Below, in pieces: positions 27,417 through 40,794 of a DNA stretch of 64,000 nucleotides (positions within the stretch are counted from its first letter, which is position 1; every line of letters starts with the position of its first letter). The position numbers and the translations under genes were made by a program. The notes under the pieces are model-generated. The model made no database searches and was not told the origin of the DNA. It saw nothing but the letters and a program-made list of their open reading frames with translations. This DNA comes from Lachnospiraceae bacterium JLR.KK002 (lineage in GTDB: Bacteria > Bacillota > Clostridia > Lachnospirales > Lachnospiraceae). The stretch covers positions 1,798,001 to 1,862,000 of the forward strand of contig JAYMNP010000001.1 of assembly GCA_036941025.1 (NCBI GenBank). The letters are read 5' to 3'.

Positions 27417-27950
27417 TCAATTACTTTGTGAAATCTTCTTTTTCACAACATAGTTCAGCACACCGCCGATTACAATAATTGCAAAAGCCACACACAGCAC
27501 TCTTTTTGCTGCCTCCTGAGGCAGCTCGCTCCTGCTCCCTATAGAATCCCGGTAAAAGAAAAGCTGGTAATGAATTTCTAAAGGATTCCCCATGGCAGTG
27601 GTATCTGCAATAACGTCCATTTCTTCATCCCAGCAAAGAACCGGTATCTCAAAAACAGAATTCATACCCTCTTCGCTCTGATTATAATAAGTAATCCCGT
27701 CTGCAATCATATAATCATAATTGGGACTGCTCCACTGGATACGGGCAACGGGTGTTCCGTTTTCCACGGTGAGCAGGGTTGGAGACGTAACAGAGGCTTT
27801 TCCGCTGCCGCCGCTTATATCCAGGGACACGCTGTATTCCCCGTCCTTCGGGGCAAATCCGCATAAAAAAAACAGAGCAAGAGCAAGCACAGCCCAAACC
27901 ATGCTCCTTCTGCCATATTTCTTACCTCTCATAAATACTTTTTCAGACAT
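27417..27950 (-). CDS. Membrane-anchored NEAT-like domain protein
   Basis: The 177 residues have an N-terminal signal-like segment (16-33), one beta-rich domain (36-133) and a C-terminal membrane span (151-168) with a Lys-rich stop. The domain is clearly paralogous to residues 199-296 of the lipoprotein at 33495-34406 (shared WSSPxYDYMI, VFExPV, DTxAM). Its strand pattern resembles NEAT domains that bind haem in Gram-positive walls. It is the last gene of the cobalamin-riboswitch operon, so a corrinoid, cobalt or porphyrin ligand is possible. The fold call is inference. Confidence 0.7.
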   Translation of the reverse strand: MSEKVFMRGKKYGRRSMVWAVLALALFFLCGFAPKDGEYSVSLDISGGSGKASVTSPTLLTVENGTPVARIQWSSPNYDYMIADGITYYNQSEEGMNSVFEIPVLCWDEEMDVIADTTAMGNPLEIHYQLFFYRDSIGSRSELPQEAAKRVLCVAFAIIVIGGVLNYVVKKKISQSN

Positions 27951-27970
27951 AGTTTCCTTTCACACTCCCG

Positions 27971-28702
27971 CTAAAGATTCTGTTTCCGATAAACAAACCA
28001 TAATCCGGCTGCTGTTAAAACAGACAGATACACAAGCAGTATCAGAATCCCCAGCGGATCCCAGCTTTCGCTGTAAGCAATGTGGCGCACCAGACCGCTG
28101 GTTTCTGACAATGGCAGAACGCCTATCACGTTCCGAATTCCCTTCGGCATATTTTCTGTTGAAATAAACGTATTACACAAAAAAGCCATGGGCATAATCA
28201 GATAATTGGAAAATCTCGGCACATCCGCATGATTTCTTGCCAGAAAGGAAACCACCACGCCCAGAGCTGAAAAGACCGCACCGTTTAAAAACAATATCAA
28301 AAATGAAAATCCGTTAAAAATCAAACCGGTATGTATTGGCCATACCAGCAGTAAAATGATACCGCCTGCATAAAGTCCCCGGACAGAGCCTGCAATAATC
28401 TGCCCTGCCATAAACTGCCACAAAGGCGTCGGAGAAATCATAACCTGGTCAAAGGCTTTTTCATAGAGCCTCTGAACATTCAGGTTCTGGGCAATGGCAT
28501 TGAAGCTGCCATTCATGGTGGTCAGCGACACAACCCCTGGTATCAGATAGTGAAGATATGGCTTTCCGTGGGACATGGTCTGGATTCCCAGGCCAAAAAC
28601 CAGAAGATACATAAGAGGCGCAATCATGGCTGCCAACGTGATTTTGTAAAAATCTCTGCGGAATTCCACCCACTTTTCCCATAAAATTGTAATTATTCCC
28701 AT
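27971..28702 (-). CDS. ABC-2 type transporter permease
   Basis: This 243-residue membrane protein has six predicted spans and the ABC-2 layout seen in drug and polyketide exporters (DrrB/NodJ-like). Its gene starts three bases after the partner ATPase and 20 bases before the NEAT-like gene. Export or flipping of a compound linked to the operon's corrin role is likely, but the substrate is unknown. Confidence 0.87.
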   Translation of the reverse strand: MGIITILWEKWVEFRRDFYKITLAAMIAPLMYLLVFGLGIQTMSHGKPYLHYLIPGVVSLTTMNGSFNAIAQNLNVQRLYEKAFDQVMISPTPLWQFMAGQIIAGSVRGLYAGGIILLLVWPIHTGLIFNGFSFLILFLNGAVFSALGVVVSFLARNHADVPRFSNYLIMPMAFLCNTFISTENMPKGIRNVIGVLPLSETSGLVRHIAYSESWDPLGILILLVYLSVLTAAGLWFVYRKQNL

Positions 28703-28705
28703 TTT

Positions 28706-29545
28706 TCACCTGACCCCTTCTCTTTTTGCCCGTTCCACAAATACATCTTCTAATGTGGTATCCCGCAACTGAACACTGCCATCTGTCCGGGCAGCAAATT
28801 CCAGCGCTTTTTCCTTTGTATGGAAATAATGGCTTACTCCTTTGTCTCCGGCAGTTTCATCCACGGCAAACTGTCCCAACCCACAGATAAAATGTCCAGG
28901 CGTGTCGATTTCTTCTATCTTCCCATGGCTCATCATAGCCACTCTGGCACACAGCTTTTCCGCTTCTTCCATATAATGTGTGGTCAGCAGGATGGTCAGA
29001 TTTCTTCCATTTAACTGCTTTAACAGGTTCCACATCTGTCTCCGGGACACAACATCCATCCCGGCCGTCGGCTCATCCAGCAGCAATATCTCAGGGTCCG
29101 TCAGAAGAGCCCTGCACACCATCAGCTTCCGCTTCATCCCGCCGGACAGCTTGCGGACCGTCTTTTTCCGGTCACGGGTCAGCCCGCAGAATTCCAACAG
29201 TTCTTCGCTCTTTCTGCGGATTTCCTTTTTCGGCATATAATAAAGCCGCCCCTGATATTCCATAATCTCATCCATGTTCATGTCCTGGCGCATGGAATAT
29301 TCCTGTGTAATGACGCTGATCTTCCGTTTCAAATCAGTTCTCTTTCGCGTGAGCAGCTCCCCGTCTATAAAAATTTCCCCCTGCGTGGGCAGAAGGAGTG
29401 TGGACAGCATACCAATCGTGGTGGTTTTTCCGGCTCCGTTTAAACCAAGCAGCCCGAAAAATTCTCCTGTTTCAATGATCATGCTGACAGAATCTACTGC
29501 GGTAAACTGATCAAACTTTTTAGTCAGATTTTTTAATACAATCAT
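28706..29545 (-). CDS. ABC-2 type transporter ATPase
   Basis: The 279 residues carry Walker A GLNGAGKTT (34-42), signature LSGGMKRKL and Walker B ILLLDEP, with a C-terminal extension typical of DrrA-like export ATPases. It overlaps the methyltransferase gene by four bases and adjoins its permease. Its presence in a cobalamin-controlled operon that also contains a complete importer is unusual. Confidence 0.88.
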   Translation of the reverse strand: MIVLKNLTKKFDQFTAVDSVSMIIETGEFFGLLGLNGAGKTTTIGMLSTLLLPTQGEIFIDGELLTRKRTDLKRKISVITQEYSMRQDMNMDEIMEYQGRLYYMPKKEIRRKSEELLEFCGLTRDRKKTVRKLSGGMKRKLMVCRALLTDPEILLLDEPTAGMDVVSRRQMWNLLKQLNGRNLTILLTTHYMEEAEKLCARVAMMSHGKIEEIDTPGHFICGLGQFAVDETAGDKGVSHYFHTKEKALEFAARTDGSVQLRDTTLEDVFVERAKREGVR

Positions 29546-30234
29546 ATCTGCTCCGTTTCCTTTGAAATAATCAGGGAATAGTATCCTGCCGTGTCCGGTA
29601 TATCATCCACATGAAAATAAACCTGCTCTTTTTCTGTCCCGCAGTTTTCAATCATAACCGCGTCCCGTCCGCTCTTCTTTAAAATCTCCTTTACCTGACT
29701 CATTTTACTGCCTGATTTCATCAGGACACAGGTTCCCGAATCAGGTAGCCTTTCCGACAGATTGTGGACAGCCGGAAAAATATGGATCTGTTCATTCCAT
29801 ATGGCCAGCGGCATGTTCATCCTGGCTGCCACCGCACAAAAAGAGGGAACTCCGCTGACCAGCCTGGTCTGAAATCCGTCTTCTTCCACAATCTGCTGAA
29901 TATAGGTAAACGTAGAATAGACAGCAGAGTCCCCCAGCGTAAGGAATACCACATTCTGTCCCTGTTTCAGATATGTCTCCACACGGTCTGCGCCTGCTCT
30001 GTGACATTTCTTCTGTTCTTCCTTATCGTGAGTCATGGGCATATACACAGGAATCAGCCCTTTCTCCGCAAGCTCCGGAACTGCCGCCGAGGCAATCTGA
30101 TATGCCACCGTTTCCTTTGGATTTTTCCCCGGCAGGGCTATCACATTGTTTTCTTTAATCAGTTTCACCGCCTTTAACGTCATAAGTTCCGGATCTCCGG
30201 GCCCTACCCCAACTCCGTATAATATTCCATTCAT
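29542..30234 (-). CDS. cbiL: Cobalt-factor II (precorrin-2) C20-methyltransferase
   Basis: The 230-residue SAM-dependent methylase has the N-terminal GVGVGPGDPELMTLKA loop, a TLGDSAVYSTF motif and GVPSFCAVAARM, which together mark the CobI/CbiL branch of the precorrin methylases. It adds the C20 methyl group, the step that follows cobalt insertion in the anaerobic route, so it pairs logically with the chelatase at 34422. No other cbi genes are in the window. CobI-type activity on metal-free precorrin-2 is the alternative. Confidence 0.92.
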   Translation of the reverse strand: MNGILYGVGVGPGDPELMTLKAVKLIKENNVIALPGKNPKETVAYQIASAAVPELAEKGLIPVYMPMTHDKEEQKKCHRAGADRVETYLKQGQNVVFLTLGDSAVYSTFTYIQQIVEEDGFQTRLVSGVPSFCAVAARMNMPLAIWNEQIHIFPAVHNLSERLPDSGTCVLMKSGSKMSQVKEILKKSGRDAVMIENCGTEKEQVYFHVDDIPDTAGYYSLIISKETEQI

Positions 30235-30283
30235 ATTGCCGTACCTCTTTTCCAGTATTTTTTCATCCCTTCTTCCATTTATT

Positions 30284-31075
30284 TCAGGGCCCTGCGCTTA
30301 TCTGTCTGATATATGCGGAAAGTTTTTCATTTCCCAGGAAGCTCCCCTTTTTCAAATCAAAAAGCCTTTCAATAAAATCTGATTCAAAAATCTCTTCCGG
30401 CGTACCATACCGTTCCACGTATCCTCCCTTCAGACAGAGTATTTTATCAGAGACAATCTTTGCAAGATCCAGTTCATGCAGAGACATAATCACCGTAAGC
30501 CCTTTTTTTTCTCTCAGTTCCTGCAATATGGATAAAAAATCCAGCTTATATCTGATATCCAGAAAAGATGTGGGCTCGTCCAGTATCACCAGCTCCGGTT
30601 CCTGGCAGATGGCTCTTGCAAGCATCACACGCTGTTTCTGCCCGTCGCTGATTTTATCAAATTCCTGTTCACAGATATCCGTAATATGGGTCAGTTCCAT
30701 CACTTCATCCACAATCCGTTCATCCTCCTGCGACAGAACGCCAAACCATCCGGTATAGGGATATCTGCCCGTTGCCACCACATCCCGGCAGTTTTTCATC
30801 TCTGCTCTCACCTTCTGGGTGAGCACCACCGACATTTTTTTTGCCAGTTCTCCCCCTTTCAGTTCTTCTGACTTATCACCGCCAAGATATATTGCTCCTG
30901 CAATCAGAGGCAGCTGCCCCACAATACTTTTTAATACTGTGGATTTACCGGCTCCGTTCGGTCCAATCAGGCTTAAAATTTCTCCTTTCGGCAACGCGAT
31001 TTCCACCTCTTTAATCAGCGGTTTTCCGTCATACCCCACACACATCTTCTTTGTGGAAAAATAATAATCTTTCAT
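30284..31075 (-). CDS. Iron-complex/cobalamin-type ABC transporter ATPase
   Basis: The 263 residues hold Walker A GPNGAGKST and Walker B LVILDEPTSFLD. The signature is a variant (ISDGQKQ rather than LSGGQ). This is the FecE/BtuD/FhuC group. The start at ATG 31075 follows AAAGGA; upstream frame extension would overlap the permease. With the permease and binding protein it makes a complete importer under the cobalamin riboswitch, consistent with a corrinoid, cobalt-tetrapyrrole or haem/siderophore cargo. Confidence 0.92.
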   Translation of the reverse strand: MKDYYFSTKKMCVGYDGKPLIKEVEIALPKGEILSLIGPNGAGKSTVLKSIVGQLPLIAGAIYLGGDKSEELKGGELAKKMSVVLTQKVRAEMKNCRDVVATGRYPYTGWFGVLSQEDERIVDEVMELTHITDICEQEFDKISDGQKQRVMLARAICQEPELVILDEPTSFLDIRYKLDFLSILQELREKKGLTVIMSLHELDLAKIVSDKILCLKGGYVERYGTPEEIFESDFIERLFDLKKGSFLGNEKLSAYIRQISAGP

Positions 31076-31089
31076 GGTTTTTCCTTTAC

Positions 31090-32160
31090 TTATACATGGT
31101 TTTCTTTTCGTCTTTTTATCATAATCCAGAGAACCACCGGCGCGCCGAAAATGGCGGTTACGGTGCTGATACTCAGTTCCGTAGGAGCCAGCAGCGTTTT
31201 GGCAAGCAAGTCGCATAACAGGCAGAACACGCTTCCGCCCAGAAAACAGGCAGGTATCATAAAGATGGGTTCCGCCGTATTCAAAAGTTTCTTAACCAGA
31301 TGAGGCGCGGCAATTCCCACAAAGGAAATCGGCCCTGCAAAAGCTACGATACATGCCGATAAAATACTTGAAAAAATCACAATGCATATCCGGAGAAGAC
31401 GGATATTCACTCCAACATTCCTGGCATAGGCATCCCCCAGCTGATAGGCGGCAAGGGGCTTGGACATAAGGAAAACAGCAAATACAGTGATAGAAACCAC
31501 TGCCGCCATCACTTCCACGCTGCTCCATGTCATGCCGGAAAAACTGCCTCTGGACCAGTTGTGCAAATTTACAATATCCGCATCTTCCGCAAAAGTCACC
31601 ACCAGCTCCGTAATAGCAGAACATATGTACCCAATCATAACGCCGCTGACCACCAGCATTGACATATTGTTAATTTTGCGGGACATCAGCAGGACAAATC
31701 CCATGGACAACATGGCTCCGGCAAATGCGGCAGAAATCATGGCAAGGGACGACACCCGGACGCCGCTTCCCATGAGAAAAACCATGACAAGAGCCACCAT
31801 CATTTTTGCACCGGAAGAAATGCCCAGCACAAAAGGCCCCGCAATGGGATTATTAAAAAATGTCTGTAACAGATATCCCGCAAGAGAAAGAGCTCCTCCA
31901 AGAATCAGAACCGCCATTGCCCTTGGTAGCCGGATATCCCATAAAATTCTGGTCACTGTCTCACTGCTTTTCTGTCCGGCAAGCTCCGACAATGTAATCC
32001 TGACGCTCCCAATGCAGATATTCAGAATAAAAAAAAGCAATGCCCCAATTCCCAGAAGAAGAAAAACCATCATATATCTGTACGTTCTGTTTCTTTTACC
32101 ATGATTCCGTTTTCCAAGTATACAGGAATTCCCGGAATGTTTTTCAGATTTGCCAGTCAC
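31090..32160 (-). CDS. FecCD-family ABC transporter permease
   Basis: The 356 residues have a basic head, about nine to ten membrane spans and FecCD motifs (LRLPRAMAVL-like DIRLPRAMAVLILGGALSLA; PISFVGIAAPHLVKKL near the C-terminus). The family includes BtuC and FhuB/G. GTG at 32160 is the start, eight to nine bases from AGGAG. A single permease gene suggests a homodimer as in BtuC2D2. Cargo is inferred from operon context. Confidence 0.93.
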   Translation of the reverse strand: MTGKSEKHSGNSCILGKRNHGKRNRTYRYMMVFLLLGIGALLFFILNICIGSVRITLSELAGQKSSETVTRILWDIRLPRAMAVLILGGALSLAGYLLQTFFNNPIAGPFVLGISSGAKMMVALVMVFLMGSGVRVSSLAMISAAFAGAMLSMGFVLLMSRKINNMSMLVVSGVMIGYICSAITELVVTFAEDADIVNLHNWSRGSFSGMTWSSVEVMAAVVSITVFAVFLMSKPLAAYQLGDAYARNVGVNIRLLRICIVIFSSILSACIVAFAGPISFVGIAAPHLVKKLLNTAEPIFMIPACFLGGSVFCLLCDLLAKTLLAPTELSISTVTAIFGAPVVLWIMIKRRKENHV

Positions 32161-32205
32161 AATACCAATCTCCTGATTCTTTTCTGTTTCTGCAGAAAAA
32201 TTTGC

Positions 32206-32267
32206 ATTTTCTCATGCTAACGAATTTTCTCATGCTAATGAATTTTCTCATGCTAATGAATTTTCCC
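32206..32267 (-). repeat. 18-bp tandem repeat at the end of the binding-protein gene
   Basis: Three head-to-tail copies of an 18-bp unit (ATTTTCTCATGCTAAYGA on the plus strand, starting 32206, 32224 and 32242) and a partial fourth cover the last codons and stop of the binding-protein gene and the spacer. The repeat duplicates the stop codon and appears to be local slippage. Confidence 0.85.
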
Positions 32268-33482
32268 ATCCGGCAGACGAAAAAGATAATGCATATCCTC
32301 TTTTTCCCCCTGAATCATTTTATGGATATCTTCCAGCAAATAGCCAACCGAAAGGGACTGCTGATACATATCATTGGTGGTGCACCAGACATTTCCTTTT
32401 TTTACCGCTTTAAAATCTGCCAGAACCTCACACTTATCCAGGAGTTCTTCCACACTGGACACGCCGCCGTCTATGGAACTGTTATAGATCAGGAAATCAG
32501 CGTCTTTCGCACCGACATAAAATTCCTCTACCTGCATGTTCAGGGTGGAACGCCTGTTTTCCGGATCTCCCAGGTCATCAAAAATATACTTTCCTCCTGC
32601 CAGTTCAATCATTTTCGGCACATAATCCGAAGACTGGCGTACCTGTACCATTCCATTGGAAGTGATAAAAAAGAAGGCCACGGTTCGGTCCGTTTTTTCG
32701 GCCGCGCTTACTTTTTCAAGAATCACCTGCTGCTCCGCGAATATCCGTTCTGCTTCTTCCTCTTTTCCCAACAGGGCACCGTAAAACTTCACCCATTCCA
32801 CTCTGCCAAGGGGGTGGGGCTCATAACTGGAATAATCCGTCACTGAAGGAATATGAAACTCTTCCAGCTTCTCCGTCACTTCCGGGGCATGGGAAATCAT
32901 CATGTTTTCTATGGCAAGGGTACAGTGCTCCGACACAAGCAGCTCATAATCCGGCCTGTTATATTTGCCTGCATAGAGAATATCGCCCTGTTCCATTGCC
33001 TTTCGAGCCTCTTCAATATACCAGCCCTCTTCTTTCTGGCCGGAAAACCGGATTGCATCCAGCCCGTCCAGCTCACGGAACATATCCATCACGGAGGACG
33101 CCACCAGATAAATATCTTTTACAGGGTGCTTCAATATCACCGGCTCCTGATTCCCGGTCTGCATACCGTCAACTATGATATCCGTATTCTCCGGTACTTC
33201 TCTGCCTTCCGGTACTATCAGAAACCGGGCACCGTCCATGGTCGTGGTCAGCAGAGTATATCCGTCCTCGTAATAATCCACGGTAAAATTTTCAGCATAA
33301 TCCAGTTCCATACTGCCTTCATGTACCAGCACCGGTCCGGTTTCCCCCGCTTCCGACTCTGATTTTTCTTCCGCCCTTTCGGCAGGTTCCGGTTTGGAAG
33401 CAGAGGAAGGACCGCCACAACCTGACAGCCACAGCAGTCCTGCAAAGAGCAGTAATATTAATTTCTTTCTTCCTCTCATCAT
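32253..33482 (-). CDS. BtuF/FecB-like solute-binding lipoprotein
   Basis: The 409 residues start with a lipoprotein signal ending LSGC (Cys22). An acidic linker follows, and then a two-lobed helical-backbone binding domain of the kind serving FecCD permeases (HPVKDIYLVASSVMDMF; LSVGYLLEDIHKMI). It stands between the NEAT-like lipoprotein and the permease. The domain is longer and more diverged than classical BtuF, so its cargo could be a cobalt-tetrapyrrole or haem-like molecule. A second ATG three bases on has better ribosome-site spacing. Confidence 0.88.
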   Translation of the reverse strand: MMRGRKKLILLLFAGLLWLSGCGGPSSASKPEPAERAEEKSESEAGETGPVLVHEGSMELDYAENFTVDYYEDGYTLLTTTMDGARFLIVPEGREVPENTDIIVDGMQTGNQEPVILKHPVKDIYLVASSVMDMFRELDGLDAIRFSGQKEEGWYIEEARKAMEQGDILYAGKYNRPDYELLVSEHCTLAIENMMISHAPEVTEKLEEFHIPSVTDYSSYEPHPLGRVEWVKFYGALLGKEEEAERIFAEQQVILEKVSAAEKTDRTVAFFFITSNGMVQVRQSSDYVPKMIELAGGKYIFDDLGDPENRRSTLNMQVEEFYVGAKDADFLIYNSSIDGGVSSVEELLDKCEVLADFKAVKKGNVWCTTNDMYQQSLSVGYLLEDIHKMIQGEKEDMHYLFRLPDGKIH

Positions 33483-33494
33483 ATCTCCATACAG

Positions 33495-34406
33495 TTATCC
33501 TTTTTTCACTGTTTCTGAATGAAATGTCAGCGTGTATTCTATTTCATGGGGCTTACTCATTGCCACCGTATCTCCAATAACTTCCATTGGTATATCAAAT
33601 CCGGAAACGGGAAATTCAAACACAGATCCGCCTTCCGTACTGACCGGAAAATACTTTTCTCCTTCCACAATCATATAATCGTAGTCCGGACTGCTCCACT
33701 GTACGGTTGCCAGCGCTTTTCCATCTGTTACTGTAAGTGCTGCAGGCGATAAAATCTCCGTTCTTCCGCTTCCGCCTTCCAGAGTAACTTCCACACTGTA
33801 GGTACCGTCTTCAAAATCTTCCGCTCTTCTGGCCTGCGTGCCATTTTCCTGCGCCTTCCCATCTTTTCCCTCCGTGTTATTTTCCAGGGGAACCGGATTT
33901 GAAACACTGACTTTGTGGTCATACCATTTCCCCTTTGTTCCAATCAGCGCCAGGTCAAATTCCTTTTCCAACGCCGGAACAGGCACATCAAAGCCATACA
34001 CCTTCTCCGTCATGCCATCGCTGTATGTGACCATATCTTCTGTGGGAATAAGCAGTTCTGCTCCTTCTTTCCCGGCGTCATCGGCAGTTCCCGGATAAAG
34101 ATTTACGATATTTTTGGAGGCAAGGGAGATATGTATGGTCATTTTCCCATTCTCTACGGTCAGGGTTCCTCTGTCGTCACAGGCCTCGCTTACGTGAAAC
34201 ATACCGCTGTCTGTTTTAAACTCCGCAAGATATGTCCCGTCCGCCAGTTCTTCCGCATCTGATTCAGCCGGAACTTCTGAAGATGTTTCCGGTACCTGTT
34301 CTGACACGGTTTCCGAATGATTTTCTTTCACACGTTCCGTATCTCCGCAGCCGCCAGCCAATGCGGACAGAAGAAACAGAACCATGATTCCCACATATTT
34401 CTTCAT
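33495..34406 (-). CDS. Two-domain NEAT-like surface lipoprotein
   Basis: The 303 residues have a lipobox with Cys20, an acidic linker to about 55 and then two beta-rich domains. Domain 1 (56-170) contains SLASKNIVNLYPG and IGTKGKWYDHKV; domain 2 (199-296) contains WSSPDYDYMI and AMSKPHEIEYTLTF. Domain 2 is paralogous to the membrane protein at 27417. The DG-Y start, S-P turn and closing EYTLTF strand suggest a NEAT-like ligand-binding fold. It sits between the chelatase and the binding protein, as expected for a relay that receives and passes on a ligand. Fold and role are inference. Confidence 0.75.
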   Translation of the reverse strand: MKKYVGIMVLFLLSALAGGCGDTERVKENHSETVSEQVPETSSEVPAESDAEELADGTYLAEFKTDSGMFHVSEACDDRGTLTVENGKMTIHISLASKNIVNLYPGTADDAGKEGAELLIPTEDMVTYSDGMTEKVYGFDVPVPALEKEFDLALIGTKGKWYDHKVSVSNPVPLENNTEGKDGKAQENGTQARRAEDFEDGTYSVEVTLEGGSGRTEILSPAALTVTDGKALATVQWSSPDYDYMIVEGEKYFPVSTEGGSVFEFPVSGFDIPMEVIGDTVAMSKPHEIEYTLTFHSETVKKG

Positions 34407-34421
34407 CTTAATCCCTCAATC

Positions 34422-35705
34422 TCACTGTTCATTCATTGCAACTGTCGTATGCTCCACATAAAGTTTCTGAACGGCTTCAATGGAGCCAAGACCTGTAATC
34501 TGTGTCTCCACACTGTCGAAATCACCGGACGCCCTGAACATACTGACCCAGGAATCCTCATCTTCTCCTGCCATATCATTGTTGGCATGATCGCCTGCCA
34601 CAACCATCAGGGGACGGAGAATAACTTTTTTGTACCCCGCCTGCTTTACTGCCTCAATCACTGCCTCACAGGAGGTATCTTCCGGTTCCCCTTCTACGGT
34701 TCCGATAAATACATTCTCATATCCAAGAGCTCCCATCTGGGACTGCATCTGGCTGTAAGACACCTTTGCCGTATGAGAAGTGCCATGGCCCAAAAATACG
34801 AAAGCCGCACCGTCTTCTTTTGCCGCTTCCAGGCTGTCGTATCCGCCATCCTGCACTGCCGCTTCCGTAAGGGCTTTTGCAACGGCCTCTTTATCTTCAT
34901 TGATTACAGAAGCATCTTCTCCGACTTCACCAAGCAAAGGCTCTGCCACTTTTACCGTTTCGAATTTCTCCCGATATGCTTCCACGGATTCCATCATCTC
35001 ATCATATTCTGCCCCGTGCATCAGATGGGTAGGCTGTATTACAAGATTCTTTACTCCGTTCGCCACCGCACGTTCCAACGCCTGTTCCATATTGTCAATA
35101 TGATCTCCGTCACGGGCCTGTACATGGTTAATAATAATCTGTGCGGTAAAAGCCCTTCTTACGGACCAGTCGGGATTTGCTTCCTGCAGTGCGTCTTCAA
35201 TGCTTTTGATGTCATCCACGCGGCTGCTGTTAAAGGAGGTTCCGAAGCTGACTGCCAGAATTTCATTTTCACCAATGTCATCCTGATTTCTCGTATCATC
35301 TGCAGAGGCATCTCCAGTATCTCTGCCAAAATAATCGGGATCTGCATTTTCACCTTCCACCAGTTCTTTCTGTTCATCTGTCAGGGCATCCCAGGCAGCT
35401 TTTGCCTGAGTACACTGTTCGTCCGTATTTCCAGTCCTCTCCTGCACATAAATTGCATCAATCAGGGCGGCAGCCTCATCGGCAGCAGCCTGATCCGTGT
35501 TTGCCTCCTCTTTTCCTTCTTCCGGCTCTTTTTTATTGGCTTCTGTCTGCTCCGTATCTGCCTTTTTCTCTTCCGGCGTTTTATTGTCTGCTTCTGTCTG
35601 ATTCGTATTTTCGGCAGTCTCCGAAGTTTCCTTTGAACAGCCTGCCAAAGCCAGGGAACAGGTCATCACACCCGCCAGTAAGGCAACCAAAAATTTCTTT
35701 TTCAT
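34422..35705 (-). CDS. cbiK: Surface lipoprotein sirohydrochlorin cobaltochelatase (CbiK type)
   Basis: CbiK inserts Co2+ into sirohydrochlorin. The catalytic domain (about 148-427) keeps both metal-binding histidines, His307 (LGHGTS) and His373 (AGDHANND), and the QPTHLMHGAEYD motif. Unlike cytosolic CbiK (about 265 residues), it has a lipoprotein signal (LALAGC, Cys23), a Glu/Lys/Thr-rich linker (25-72) and a small helical domain (73-120, AWDALTDEQKELV). So it should act outside the cell; exported CbiK forms are known in Desulfovibrio. It is the first gene after the cobalamin riboswitch leader, with an AAAGGAG site before the ATG. Confidence 0.93.
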   Translation of the reverse strand: MKKKFLVALLAGVMTCSLALAGCSKETSETAENTNQTEADNKTPEEKKADTEQTEANKKEPEEGKEEANTDQAAADEAAALIDAIYVQERTGNTDEQCTQAKAAWDALTDEQKELVEGENADPDYFGRDTGDASADDTRNQDDIGENEILAVSFGTSFNSSRVDDIKSIEDALQEANPDWSVRRAFTAQIIINHVQARDGDHIDNMEQALERAVANGVKNLVIQPTHLMHGAEYDEMMESVEAYREKFETVKVAEPLLGEVGEDASVINEDKEAVAKALTEAAVQDGGYDSLEAAKEDGAAFVFLGHGTSHTAKVSYSQMQSQMGALGYENVFIGTVEGEPEDTSCEAVIEAVKQAGYKKVILRPLMVVAGDHANNDMAGEDEDSWVSMFRASGDFDSVETQITGLGSIEAVQKLYVEHTTVAMNEQ

Positions 35706-35814
35706 TTTTCTCTCCTTTTCCTGTTGTTACCAAAATGGTAGTATCTATGCAGAATATCCTTTCCGATATTCTGTGCCGCTTTGCGGCAGCATCTTTTGCA
35801 AAAGCGCTTTACAA

Positions 35815-36048
35815 AACAAAATGGGCAATTCCGCTTCAGCTCCTCTGGCCCCTCATTCTTGAGAGGGTGCACACTTTGACGCGCGCGAGCGGATTGCGCA
35901 GCAACAGATTTCCTCTCCGCGAGCTGCGCATCTCGCCCGGAGGGCTTTATCTTATAGGAAACCTATATACTTTACCACTTCACAGTAACACGATATTTCC
36001 TGTAAAATAAAAAATGTGCAGCCCGCATTTCTCACACGCGAGTTGCAC
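35815..36048. repeat. Modular intergenic repeat, copy 5 (A, B, C) inside the cbiK leader
   Basis: AATTCCGCTTCAGCTCCTC and CCCCTCATTCTTGAGAGGG recall module A. GCGCGCGAGCGGATTGCGC and CTCCGCGAGCTGCGCATC match module B. CTTATAGGAAAC...GATATTTCCTGTAA matches module C, and a further TGTGCAGCCCGC...GCGAGTTGCACA hairpin follows. It lies between the riboswitch terminator and cbiK, so it is transcribed as part of the leader. Confidence 0.75.
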
Positions 36049-36093
36049 ATCACATTTTCACATTACAGAATCTCCTTAAAAAATTTCTGTAAT

Positions 36094-36125
36094 AAAAAAC
36101 TTTACCATAAAAAACTACGGTAAAG
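36094..36125 (-). terminator. Riboswitch expression-platform terminator
   Basis: On the minus strand CTTTACC (36125-36119) and GGTAAAG (36106-36100) form a stem, partly extended, followed directly by TTTTTT. It lies about 100 bases after the aptamer and fits cobalamin-dependent premature termination. Confidence 0.8.
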
Positions 36126-36224
36126 GATTCATACATTTTATCACAGATCTGCAGACATTTCTCTGCAAACCCAAGCGTACAACCAGTCACTCGTGGCTTG
36201 AAATAATATATTTCTGTACAACAT

Positions 36225-36360
36225 CCAGGCAGGTTTCCCGACTTAACAATCATCACATCAGCCACCTTCCCAGTTTCCCAGTGGTATATCGGCTTCTGCT
36301 CCCTTATTACGGTGACGAGTTCGCATGGGATTCACACCCATTTTCCCTTTTCACCAAAAT
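36225..36360 (-). ncRNA. Cobalamin riboswitch aptamer
   Basis: The minus strand shows the aptamer landmarks in order: GGTGAAAAGGGAA, TGGGTGTGAATCCCATGCG, the GAAGCCGA and ATACCACTGGG segment, GGGAAGGTGGCTGATG, and the B12 box AAGTCGGGAAACCTGCC. Repression by adenosylcobalamin or a related corrinoid would shut off the cbiK-to-NEAT operon. Upstream promoter and downstream terminator are both visible. Confidence 0.95.
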
Positions 36361-36416
36361 AATATATGTTTTACATATTATTTTGACACCTGTATGCAAT
36401 TTATTTAATTTTCTAC

Positions 36417-36444
36417 AGTATACCACACATTTCTGAAATGTCAA
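36417..36444 (-). promoter_or_regulatory. Promoter of the cobalamin-riboswitch operon
   Basis: On the minus strand TTGACA (36444-36439), a 16-base spacer and TATACT (36422-36417) precede the aptamer by about 60 bases. A perfect AT-rich hairpin (AATAATAT...ATATTATT) lies between them at about 36358-36383. Confidence 0.75.
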
Positions 36445-38599: not shown

Positions 38600-39361
38600 T
38601 TATCCTGCTTCAATCACATCTTTCATGTCATAATTTCCTGCCGGTTTTCCTGCCAGAAACTTTGCCGCTTCCACTGCGCCTTTTCCAAAAATTCCTTTGG
38701 AATAAGCAGTGTGGCGGATTTCTATGACCTCGTCCAGTCCGGCAAAAATCACTTCATGTTCCCCCACAATACTGCCGCCCCGGACTGCCTGAATGCCGAT
38801 TTCATTTTTTTCCCGCTTCTTTCTTTCCTGTGTACGGTCATATTTATACTGATACGCATTTTCCAGTGCTTCGTTGATGGAATCTGCCAGTGCCAGCGCT
38901 GTTCCGCTGGGCGCGTCCACTTTCTGATTATGGTGCTTTTCCACAATTTCCATATCAAAACCTGCCGGCGCCAGTATCCTGGCTGCCTTTTGCAGCAGCT
39001 CCATCAGGACATTTACCCCCAGAGACATGTTGGCAGACTTCAGTACGGCAGTTTTCCTGCCTGCCTCTTCCACTTTCCTGTTCTGTTCCTCGCTTAACCC
39101 TGTGGTACATAAAACCACCGGAAGCTGATGCTGCACACAATACTTAAGCAGGCTGTCCACTGCAGAAGCTGCCGCAAAGTCCACCACCACATCGGCCTCC
39201 ACTTTGCAGTCTTCAATCCTCTGAAACACCGGATAGGAATTTTCAATTCCATCATACGGGTCAATACCTGCCACAATCTGAATATCGCTGTCCTCCTGGC
39301 AGATGGAAGAAATTACCTGTCCCATCCTGCCATTACAGCCATGCATAATCATTTTTACCAT
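38600..39361 (-). CDS. dapB: 4-hydroxy-tetrahydrodipicolinate reductase
   Basis: DapB reduces the DapA product with NAD(P)H on the way to diaminopimelate, dipicolinate and lysine. The 253 residues have the nucleotide loop GCNGRMGQ (8-15), the catalytic EKHHNQKVDAPSGTA segment and a C-terminal FGKGAVEAAKFLAGK. It follows dapA on the same strand with repeat copy 6 in the 157-base gap, so it probably shares control by the lysine riboswitch. Confidence 0.96.
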   Translation of the reverse strand: MVKMIMHGCNGRMGQVISSICQEDSDIQIVAGIDPYDGIENSYPVFQRIEDCKVEADVVVDFAAASAVDSLLKYCVQHQLPVVLCTTGLSEEQNRKVEEAGRKTAVLKSANMSLGVNVLMELLQKAARILAPAGFDMEIVEKHHNQKVDAPSGTALALADSINEALENAYQYKYDRTQERKKREKNEIGIQAVRGGSIVGEHEVIFAGLDEVIEIRHTAYSKGIFGKGAVEAAKFLAGKPAGNYDMKDVIEAG

Positions 39362-39518: not shown

Positions 39519-40409
39519 TCAGGCCAGCGGAATGCCAAATTCTTTCATAGCCTTTGATAATTTTTTCACATTCTCAGGCTCCATCTCGCTTAAAGGTGCC
39601 CGCAGAGAACCTGTATTCCATCCCATCAGATTCATTGCTGCTTTTACCGGAATTGGATTCACCTCACAGAACAGGGCATCCACCAGGGGAAGAGCTTTTA
39701 TCTGCATTTCCAGTGCCTCCTTGTGGTTTCCGTTCAGATAATTCATTACCATATCATGGGTGAATTTGGGGGCAATATTGGAGAGAACGGAAATTACCCC
39801 GATTCCACCGCAGGCAAGCAGAGGAATTACCTGCCCATCCTCACCGGAATAGACGTCAAAATCTCCCTGTGTCTGCTCCATCAGTTTCAGTGTATAGGAA
39901 ATATCTCCTACGGCGTCTTTCATTCCCACAATATGCTCCACTTCCCGGTTCAGGAAAGCCGCTGTTTCCGCTTCAATCCTGCAGCCTGTTCTGCCCGGAA
40001 TATTGTACATGATAATGGGAATATCCACATATTTTGCCACCCGGATATAATGTTCAATCAACCCTTTCTGGGTGGCTTTGTTATAGTAGGGGGTTACCAC
40101 CAGCAGTCCGTCCGCACCCACAAGCTGAGCCTGGTAGGAAAGTTCCACGGCTGTCCGGGTACAGTTCGAACCGGTTCCCGCAATCACCGGAATCCGTTTA
40201 TCCACAATGGCAACTGCAGCCCGTATTACTTCCAGATGTTCCTCCACGGTCAGGGTGGATGCCTCTCCGGTGGTTCCTGTAATAATAATACTGTCTGTTT
40301 CATTCTGAATCTGGTCTTCCAGAATTTCCGCCAGTTTATCGTAATCCACTTCCAGATTTTCCTTCATTGGTGTAACAAGCGCTACGCCTGCGCCTTTAAA
40401 AAGTGCCAT
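39519..40409 (-). CDS. dapA: 4-hydroxy-tetrahydrodipicolinate synthase
   Basis: The 296-residue (beta/alpha)8 aldolase condenses pyruvate with aspartate semialdehyde. Motifs seen are TGTTGEASTL for pyruvate binding, the tyrosine region VVTPYYNKAT, YNIPGRTG and the Schiff-base lysine in HIVGMKDAVGD. It is the first gene after a lysine riboswitch, and dapB follows. The product also feeds dipicolinate for spores. Confidence 0.97.
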   Translation of the reverse strand: MALFKGAGVALVTPMKENLEVDYDKLAEILEDQIQNETDSIIITGTTGEASTLTVEEHLEVIRAAVAIVDKRIPVIAGTGSNCTRTAVELSYQAQLVGADGLLVVTPYYNKATQKGLIEHYIRVAKYVDIPIIMYNIPGRTGCRIEAETAAFLNREVEHIVGMKDAVGDISYTLKLMEQTQGDFDVYSGEDGQVIPLLACGGIGVISVLSNIAPKFTHDMVMNYLNGNHKEALEMQIKALPLVDALFCEVNPIPVKAAMNLMGWNTGSLRAPLSEMEPENVKKLSKAMKEFGIPLA

Positions 40410-40594: not shown

Positions 40595-40772
40595 TCTGCT
40601 TATAATCCATGATAGCACTCCATCCACTGATGACAGTCATATAATTATTCACTATATGCCCAAGAATCTCTCTTCAGGAAAAGAACTTCTTTCGGCGTTC
40701 TTCCCTTTCAGTTATCATCCTCTGTGCCTGTCACATCCGATAAGCTACTCATGAATCACGCAACCTCTATCT
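40595..40772 (-). ncRNA. Lysine riboswitch aptamer (L box)
   Basis: Minus-strand landmarks in order are AGAGGTTGCG, GAGTAGC, CTGAAAGGGAAGAACGCCGAAAG, a CTTGGGCATATAGTGAAT segment and ACTGTCATC...GGAGTGCTATC, which match the conserved L-box core. It lies between its own promoter and a terminator upstream of dapA, so lysine should repress dapA and probably dapB. Confidence 0.93.
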
Positions 40773-40794
40773 ATTCATATGTTCTGCTAACGCT

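Follow-up and report, generated by a model that had tools for sequence, protein, structure and literature searches.

Architecture of the operon

The window analysed here is the whole stretch of 64,000 nucleotides from Lachnospiraceae bacterium JLR.KK002 (contig JAYMNP010000001.1, positions 1,798,001 to 1,862,000); positions are counted from its first letter. Our subject is an operon at 27417..36444, in which a cobalamin riboswitch precedes nine closely packed genes, all on the minus strand. A sequence-only reading had described this riboswitch-led, single-strand, nine-gene layout, and re-examination confirmed it. The features are as follows:

36417..36444, minus strand: promoter-like site TTGACA-16-TATACT with an extended -10 (consensus scan, 11/12 matches; alone no proof of function)
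36211..36408, minus strand: cobalamin riboswitch aptamer (RF00174, 94.2 bits, E 3.8e-22, exceeding the Rfam gathering score of 31.5)
36100..36125, minus strand: terminator-like hairpin with an 11-bp stem, and T run
34422..35705, minus strand: putative secreted CbiK cobaltochelatase lipoprotein
33495..34406, minus strand: two-domain NEAT lipoprotein, putative tetrapyrrole relay
32253..33482, minus strand: substrate-binding lipoprotein (SBP) of the FecB/BtuF type (Peripla_BP_2, 94 bits)
31090..32160, minus strand: FecCD-type permease (PF01032, 258 bits)
30284..31075, minus strand: importer ATPase (ABC_tran, 98 bits; open frame from 31216, the start at 31075 being our reading)
29542..30234, minus strand: CbiL, the genome's second copy (TIGR01467, 196.4 bits against a cut-off of 163.25, hence at equivalog level)
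28706..29545, minus strand: ABC-2 exporter ATPase (ABC_tran, 108 bits)
27971..28702, minus strand: ABC-2 exporter permease (ABC2_membrane, 72 bits)
27417..27950, minus strand: membrane-anchored single NEAT-like protein (50% identity to domain 2 of the NEAT lipoprotein)

The terminator-like hairpin is present in the minimum-free-energy fold, with a joint z of -4.18 for aptamer and hairpin, and it is likely to be the expression platform of the riboswitch. From there to the CbiK start runs a leader of about 390 bases (35706-36099, minus strand) with GC-rich segments and no Rfam match at gathering scores. The closest NCBIfam model of the exporter ATPase is DrrA (246 bits, under the cut-off of 312), and the membrane NEAT-like protein has no NEAT match in Pfam.

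Elsewhere in this genome, CbiD and the other CbiL copy are clustered with genes reading as CbiF, CbiG, CbiH and a CbiJ/E/T fusion. The genome also encodes a second CbiK devoid of a signal peptide, HemB, and a HemC-CobA-HemD fusion adjoining a HemA-like gene. Its second cobalamin riboswitch lies upstream of CbiM, with genes that read as CbiQ- and CbiO-like nearby. Given this full second route, the CbiK and CbiL of the operon are extra copies, and we predict that the operon serves here, next to a full cytosolic pathway, as an additional route equipped with a CbiL of its own.

Conservation of a core cassette

We searched a sample of 150 genomes of the family, the window's own included. The CbiK query matched 84 of them and the NEAT query 53. 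Reading of the N-termini assigned a secreted CbiK to 47 genomes and a cytosolic one to 53, with both kinds in 16. These calls follow a lipobox rule, a few rows being decided by eye: L107, L112 and L113 were taken for lipoproteins and L088 and L201 for Sec-secreted proteins lacking the Cys; L200 (G063), truncated by a contig edge, was classed with the secreted proteins on the basis of similarity. Weak or partial matches (G010:C69, G024:C48, G053:C44) stayed outside the classification, and G010 and G053, both scored as having secreted CbiK only, could hold a weak second copy. In a quick tree, the secreted CbiK proteins form one clade, with one reversal to the cytosolic form (genome 62). Many gene names given for relatives (CbiC, CbiG, CbiP, CobD, CobS, CobT, HemA and others) come from reading or from similarity to genes of the window's genome rather than from family models.

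A scan of named genomes, of which the best 80 loci were retained, added records titled Petralouisia muris, Faecalibacterium longum, Gemmiger formicilis, Eubacterium ramulus, Pseudobutyrivibrio, Blautia and others. The recurring core consists of secreted CbiK, the NEAT protein, the SBP, the FecCD permease and the ATPase; it occurs commonly in Lachnospiraceae and also in Oscillospiraceae relatives. Where 5.5 kb or more of sequence is available downstream, the other four genes all follow CbiK in 28 of the 37 genome loci and in 56 of the 68 from the best 80 named loci. In this count L077 and L134 were scored as lacking the ATPase, though other readings show one there, and the two sets are not fully independent, as some contigs occur in both (L134=L077, L141=L079, L157=L090, L171=L088). 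The linkage that the sequence-only reading had noticed in one strain is thus conserved well beyond it, as a core; the nine-gene set is not conserved as such, CbiL and the exporter being rarer.

The cobalamin riboswitch recurs as well, upstream of CbiK in 26 of 29 close-class loci (L018-L046) in addition to the window. None was found there at L028, at L034 or at L045, which lies at a contig end. For the distant class, the two loci checked gave one with a riboswitch (L116) and one without (L107, at a contig start). CbiD follows downstream within the fetched stretch (at most 10 kb) in 12 of 40 genome loci and 8 of the 80 best named loci.

Several cassette genes are fused in frame. By our own family models, CbiK is fused to NEAT in 14/46 genome loci and 23/80 of the best named loci, and NEAT to the SBP in many loci. 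The importer ATPase is fused to CbiD in three clusters, L101, L150 (F. longum, confirmed by Pfam) and L164. Such fusions indicate that the parts of the cassette belong together.

The secreted chelatase and the NEAT proteins

CbiK inserts Co2+ into sirohydrochlorin and CbiL methylates the product, both normally cytosolic steps. The operon CbiK has the Pfam family and the fold of a class II sirohydrochlorin cobaltochelatase. Its score against the NCBIfam equivalog SiroCoChCbiK (183.7 bits) does not reach the cut-off of 400, and we therefore treat it as a member of a divergent secreted class rather than as the equivalog. H307 and H373 are invariant in 24 secreted CbiK sequences and were aligned (1qgo) to the catalytic His145 and His207 of the Salmonella numbering, whose roles are treated in the accessible part of PMC7689651. 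As judged from this alignment, the catalytic residues of secreted CbiK are intact.

The NEAT lipoprotein scores 25.0 against Pfam NEAT, under the gathering score of 32.8, and has a NEAT fold. For NEAT2, no credible PDB relative was found by sequence. Near the C-terminus, H287 and Y291 are invariant and form an HxxxY motif, as read from sequence positions only. Open frames of about 900-1800 aa with at least one NEAT-family match each also occur away from CbiK (G102:C1:2650938-2652272, G118:C7:46444-48690, G081:C2:13120-13416 and others).

Co-occurrence with corrin and tetrapyrrole genes

The 150 genomes were searched for CbiD, HemB, CbiX, HemC, CobA, CbiL and CbiM. CbiD is present in 46 of the 47 genomes with secreted CbiK against 41 of the 103 without (p 6e-13; this and the p values below treat genera as independent). 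The 87 genomes with CbiD fall into four groups, 'secreted-only' denoting genomes whose only classified CbiK is secreted:

Secreted-only (31 genomes): HemB 5, HemC 9, CobA 11, CbiM 0, CbiL 17
Both kinds (15 genomes): HemB 12, HemC 15, CobA 15, CbiM 5, CbiL 14
Cytosolic-only (34 genomes): HemB 21, HemC 31, CobA 32, CbiM 24, CbiL 34
No CbiK (7 genomes): HemB 2, HemC 1, CobA 1, CbiM 1, CbiL 3

Comparison of the 31 secreted-only genomes with the 49 that have any cytosolic CbiK gives 9 against 46 for HemC, 11 against 47 for CobA and 0 against 29 for CbiM (p 1e-9, 4e-9 and 6e-9, respectively). HemB, HemC and CobA are missing together in 20 of the 31 secreted-only genomes, which keep corrin genes and 12 of which are at least 95% complete, and in 2 of the 49 others. 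The loss of all three leaves those 20 genomes with no sirohydrochlorin synthesis by the routes known to us. CbiM lies near the cytosolic CbiK in 17/53 loci. CbiX, considered as a hidden cytosolic chelatase, was rejected, since all 43 matches to its model (E 1e-4) fall inside CbiK matches.

Genome 8, without HemB and HemC and with CobA, has the cassette's importer next to a cytosolic CbiK-CbiL fusion. In operon direction, its locus (L250, 2995-4524) presents this fusion, then the SBP-FecCD-ATPase importer and genes reading as CbiC and CbiD. From its gene order, it reads as a case in which the chelatase moved inside and the importer was retained. Two other genomes without HemB and HemC have a gene for an apparent binding lipoprotein and, after it, one reading as a CysG-like dehydrogenase-CobA (L275:3834-6266 in genome 74, L276:5887-8273 in genome 122); uroporphyrinogen salvage is a possible role for these pairs. 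In G081, HemC and cytosolic CbiK share one open frame (L208:2074-3804), and an exporter cluster is also present.

A predicted route for cobalt-tetrapyrrole acquisition

Based on these gene contents and linkages, we consider it probable that the operon is a B12-repressed system for cobalt-tetrapyrrole acquisition, in which cobalt would be inserted outside the cell into a salvaged ring at the sirohydrochlorin level and the product imported for corrin synthesis. Surface-anchored CbiK would insert Co2+ into the ring. The NEAT proteins, judging from their fold and fusions, would hold the metallated ring and pass it on, and the SBP, FecCD permease and ATPase, from their families and synteny, would import it. 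Cytosolic corrin enzymes would then convert it to a cobamide. For many relatives, gene content predicts that the corrin pathway is entered through the cassette alone.

Surface chelation, a NEAT relay, import and feeding of corrin synthesis were already the outline of the sequence-only reading. That outline is backed by the synteny, the fusions, the riboswitches, the near-constant presence of CbiD and the missing tetrapyrrole genes and CbiM of the secreted-only genomes; two of its elements, the full nine-gene set and a general CbiL step, were not.

Several observations weigh against the predicted route. The full downstream set was not scored in 9/37 genome loci and 12/68 of the best-80 named loci, several of which have CbiK and NEAT alone. 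In both CbiK-NEAT fusion frames tested, Pfam finds CbiK only, not NEAT. At E 1e-30, 11 of the 20 genomes devoid of HemB, HemC and CobA gave no CbiL match; the corrin-operon stretches fetched from these 11 show no CbiL, with cross-matches of the CbiF/CbiH/CbiJET type of at most 42 bits. A step in which CbiL commits the product to cobalamin, as first proposed, therefore cannot be general. These genomes (4, 43, 66, 72, 75, 79, 92, 100, 129, 131 and 135) have CbiD and other corrin genes, and they either encode a divergent C20-methyltransferase or import a ring that is already C20-methylated, that is, a later intermediate. Five genomes with CbiD (40, 52, 94, 127 and 142) lack HemB, HemC and CobA and have no CbiK match, and the cytosolic-only genomes 62 and 149 also lack the three genes, genome 62 being the reversal inside the secreted clade. 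A phylogeny-corrected co-loss test, with the secreted-CbiK gene tree as proxy, yielded only 2 supported independent pairs, too few to replace the p values that leave genera as independent. According to the accessible part of PMC7689651, Salmonella CbiK obtains cobalt through intracellular metal availability, not affinity; other metals could thus win outside the cell, where specificity needs explaining. Lastly, the scheme presupposes that sirohydrochlorin is available in the gut.

Among described systems, Iht of Porphyromonas gingivalis (IhtA-E) comes closest, sharing with the window operon a CbiK-like lipoprotein, a binding protein, a permease and an ATPase; it is considered a haem/iron system and 'hardly characterized' (PMC10913741). 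It differs in being Gram-negative, with a TonB receptor, and the accessible part of that paper names no NEAT relay, CbiL or exporter. Among the nine genes of the operon, none encodes a TonB-dependent receptor such as IhtA; the rest of the genome was not searched for one.

We know of no link between the periplasmic CbiK of Desulfovibrio vulgaris and NEAT proteins or an importer. The haem-ligating motif of NEAT domains is YxxxY, and Isd-type NEAT relays handle iron-haem; the present cassette differs by its B12 riboswitches, lipoprotein anchors, chelatase partner and conserved HxxxY. The periplasmic location of the D. vulgaris protein is given in excerpted text of PMC4063343.

Salvagers that make corrins without early tetrapyrrole genes, primarily Firmicutes, have been described by Shelton et al. 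(PMC6461909). For these, only salvage of 5-aminolevulinic acid was tested, and no uptake system is named in the portion of the paper available. The rumen operational taxonomic unit (OTU) Bt-995 has most corrin genes, no early tetrapyrrole genes and transporters annotated as BtuFCD (PMC12654859). It differs in that these are taken for cobalamin uptake and the OTU for a cobinamide salvager, and the available portion of that paper names no secreted chelatase or NEAT relay; for another OTU, it credits a cobaltochelatase with 'transporting sirohydrochlorin'. In the literature searched (openly licensed papers, part of the listings), we found no description of the cassette.

The cassette is a concrete candidate, across many genera, for how some corrin makers without tetrapyrrole synthesis obtain ring and cobalt together, and it could explain B12 production by bacteria with only the later half of the pathway. 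It would shift to the outside of the cell a chelation step regarded as cytosolic, and it gives the question of which compounds salvagers take up, and from whom, a set of genes to test. The cassette itself occurs in records titled Faecalibacterium, Gemmiger, Eubacterium and Blautia. With it, models of gut cross-feeding would gain a shared B12 precursor, and the poorly understood Iht system could be read in a new way.

The ABC-2 exporter

The scheme first drawn from the sequence gave the exporter no role; in the window's genome, it may release self-made sirohydrochlorin. The ABC-2 permease is a rare add-on, found in 9 of 124 cassette loci (four contigs are counted twice, and the count concerns the vicinity of cassettes only). 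HemC or CobA occurs in the same stretch in 4/9 loci with the exporter versus 0/115 without, and CbiL in 6/9 versus 4/115. At L140 the order is HemC, CobA/HemD, CbiL, ABC-2 permease, cytosolic CbiK, membrane NEAT, secreted CbiK, NEAT, SBP, FecCD and ATPase; L136, L184 and L097 are variants of this cluster. All four contain CobA/HemD, usually HemC, and relatives of the membrane NEAT-like protein adjoining the exporter and hem genes; one has a gene for an NAD-binding dehydrogenase-like protein. BioY-family genes (PF02632) lie inside two such exporter/hem/CbiK clusters (L136:6852-7469, L097:10294-11010). The fetched stretches of L115, L117, L160, L183 and L204, and the window, hold no hem gene.

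The linkage of HemC and CobA to the exporter suggests that the pump moves a tetrapyrrole made by the cell itself, which leads to a tentative 'cobaltophore' proposal that we regard as possible but doubtful: self-made sirohydrochlorin would be exported via ABC-2, loaded with Co2+ on the surface by CbiK, relayed by NEAT, re-imported by FecBCD and locked into corrin synthesis by a dedicated CbiL. For the window itself this may apply by extrapolation from the related clusters. Staphylopine and pseudopaline are likewise made, exported, loaded with metal outside and re-imported (PMC5719457, in the part available); they differ in not being tetrapyrroles. A metallophore system would have a dedicated exporter linked to the synthesis genes, together with an importer; HemC or CobA lies near the exporter in 4/9 loci, and not in the window. 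If the proposal is true, relatives without tetrapyrrole synthesis would be cheaters or salvagers living on sirohydrochlorin from producers. The term 'cobaltophore' was not found in the openly licensed literature searched.

Alternative explanations

An ordinary BtuFCD corrinoid importer with extra surface corrinoid binders, in which CbiK would be a retired enzyme now acting as a binder, appears unlikely. The riboswitch agrees with it, as does the permease, whose best NCBIfam match is BtuC, and surface B12-binding lipoproteins are known in Bacteroides (BtuG/BtuH, from partly accessible sources). Nevertheless, that match (218 bits) does not reach the BtuC cut-off of 334, the CbiK catalytic residues are invariant, and the missing hem genes are left unexplained. 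A vitamin scavenger would also be expected in bacteria without corrin synthesis, whereas secreted CbiK occurs in 1/63 genomes lacking CbiD (G063, a contig-edge fragment).

Haem-iron acquisition, with surface CbiK as a haem de-chelatase, NEAT binding haem and the importer taking up iron or haem, as proposed for Iht, is less probable still. The NEAT fold is closest to haem hemophores, the SBP family profile matches only Lmo2184 in the PDB (E 2.9e-6), and the CbiK relative FetB, also matched by fold, carries the name of a haem-binding protein. We take IhtB to be FetB. IhtB is believed to remove iron from haem (PMC10913741, accessible part). However, cobalamin riboswitches, CbiD in 46/47 secreted-CbiK genomes, an ATPase fused to CbiD and the lack of CbiM in all secreted-only genomes are unexpected for an iron system. 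By riboswitch presence and co-occurrence, the haem-iron and plain-B12 explanations rank below cobalt-tetrapyrrole acquisition.

Cobalt scavenging alone, with CbiK and NEAT binding Co2+ or a cobalt complex and the tetrapyrrole incidental, is very improbable: the cassette could replace the CbiM absent from 31/31 secreted-only genomes, but the loss of HemB, HemC and CobA in 20 of them and the NEAT domains, whose matches among solved structures are mostly haem binders, would be unexplained.

Neighbouring feature

Outside the operon, the window contains a lysine riboswitch (40605-40777, minus strand, 117 bits) upstream of genes reading as dapA (39519-40409) and dapB (38600-39361).

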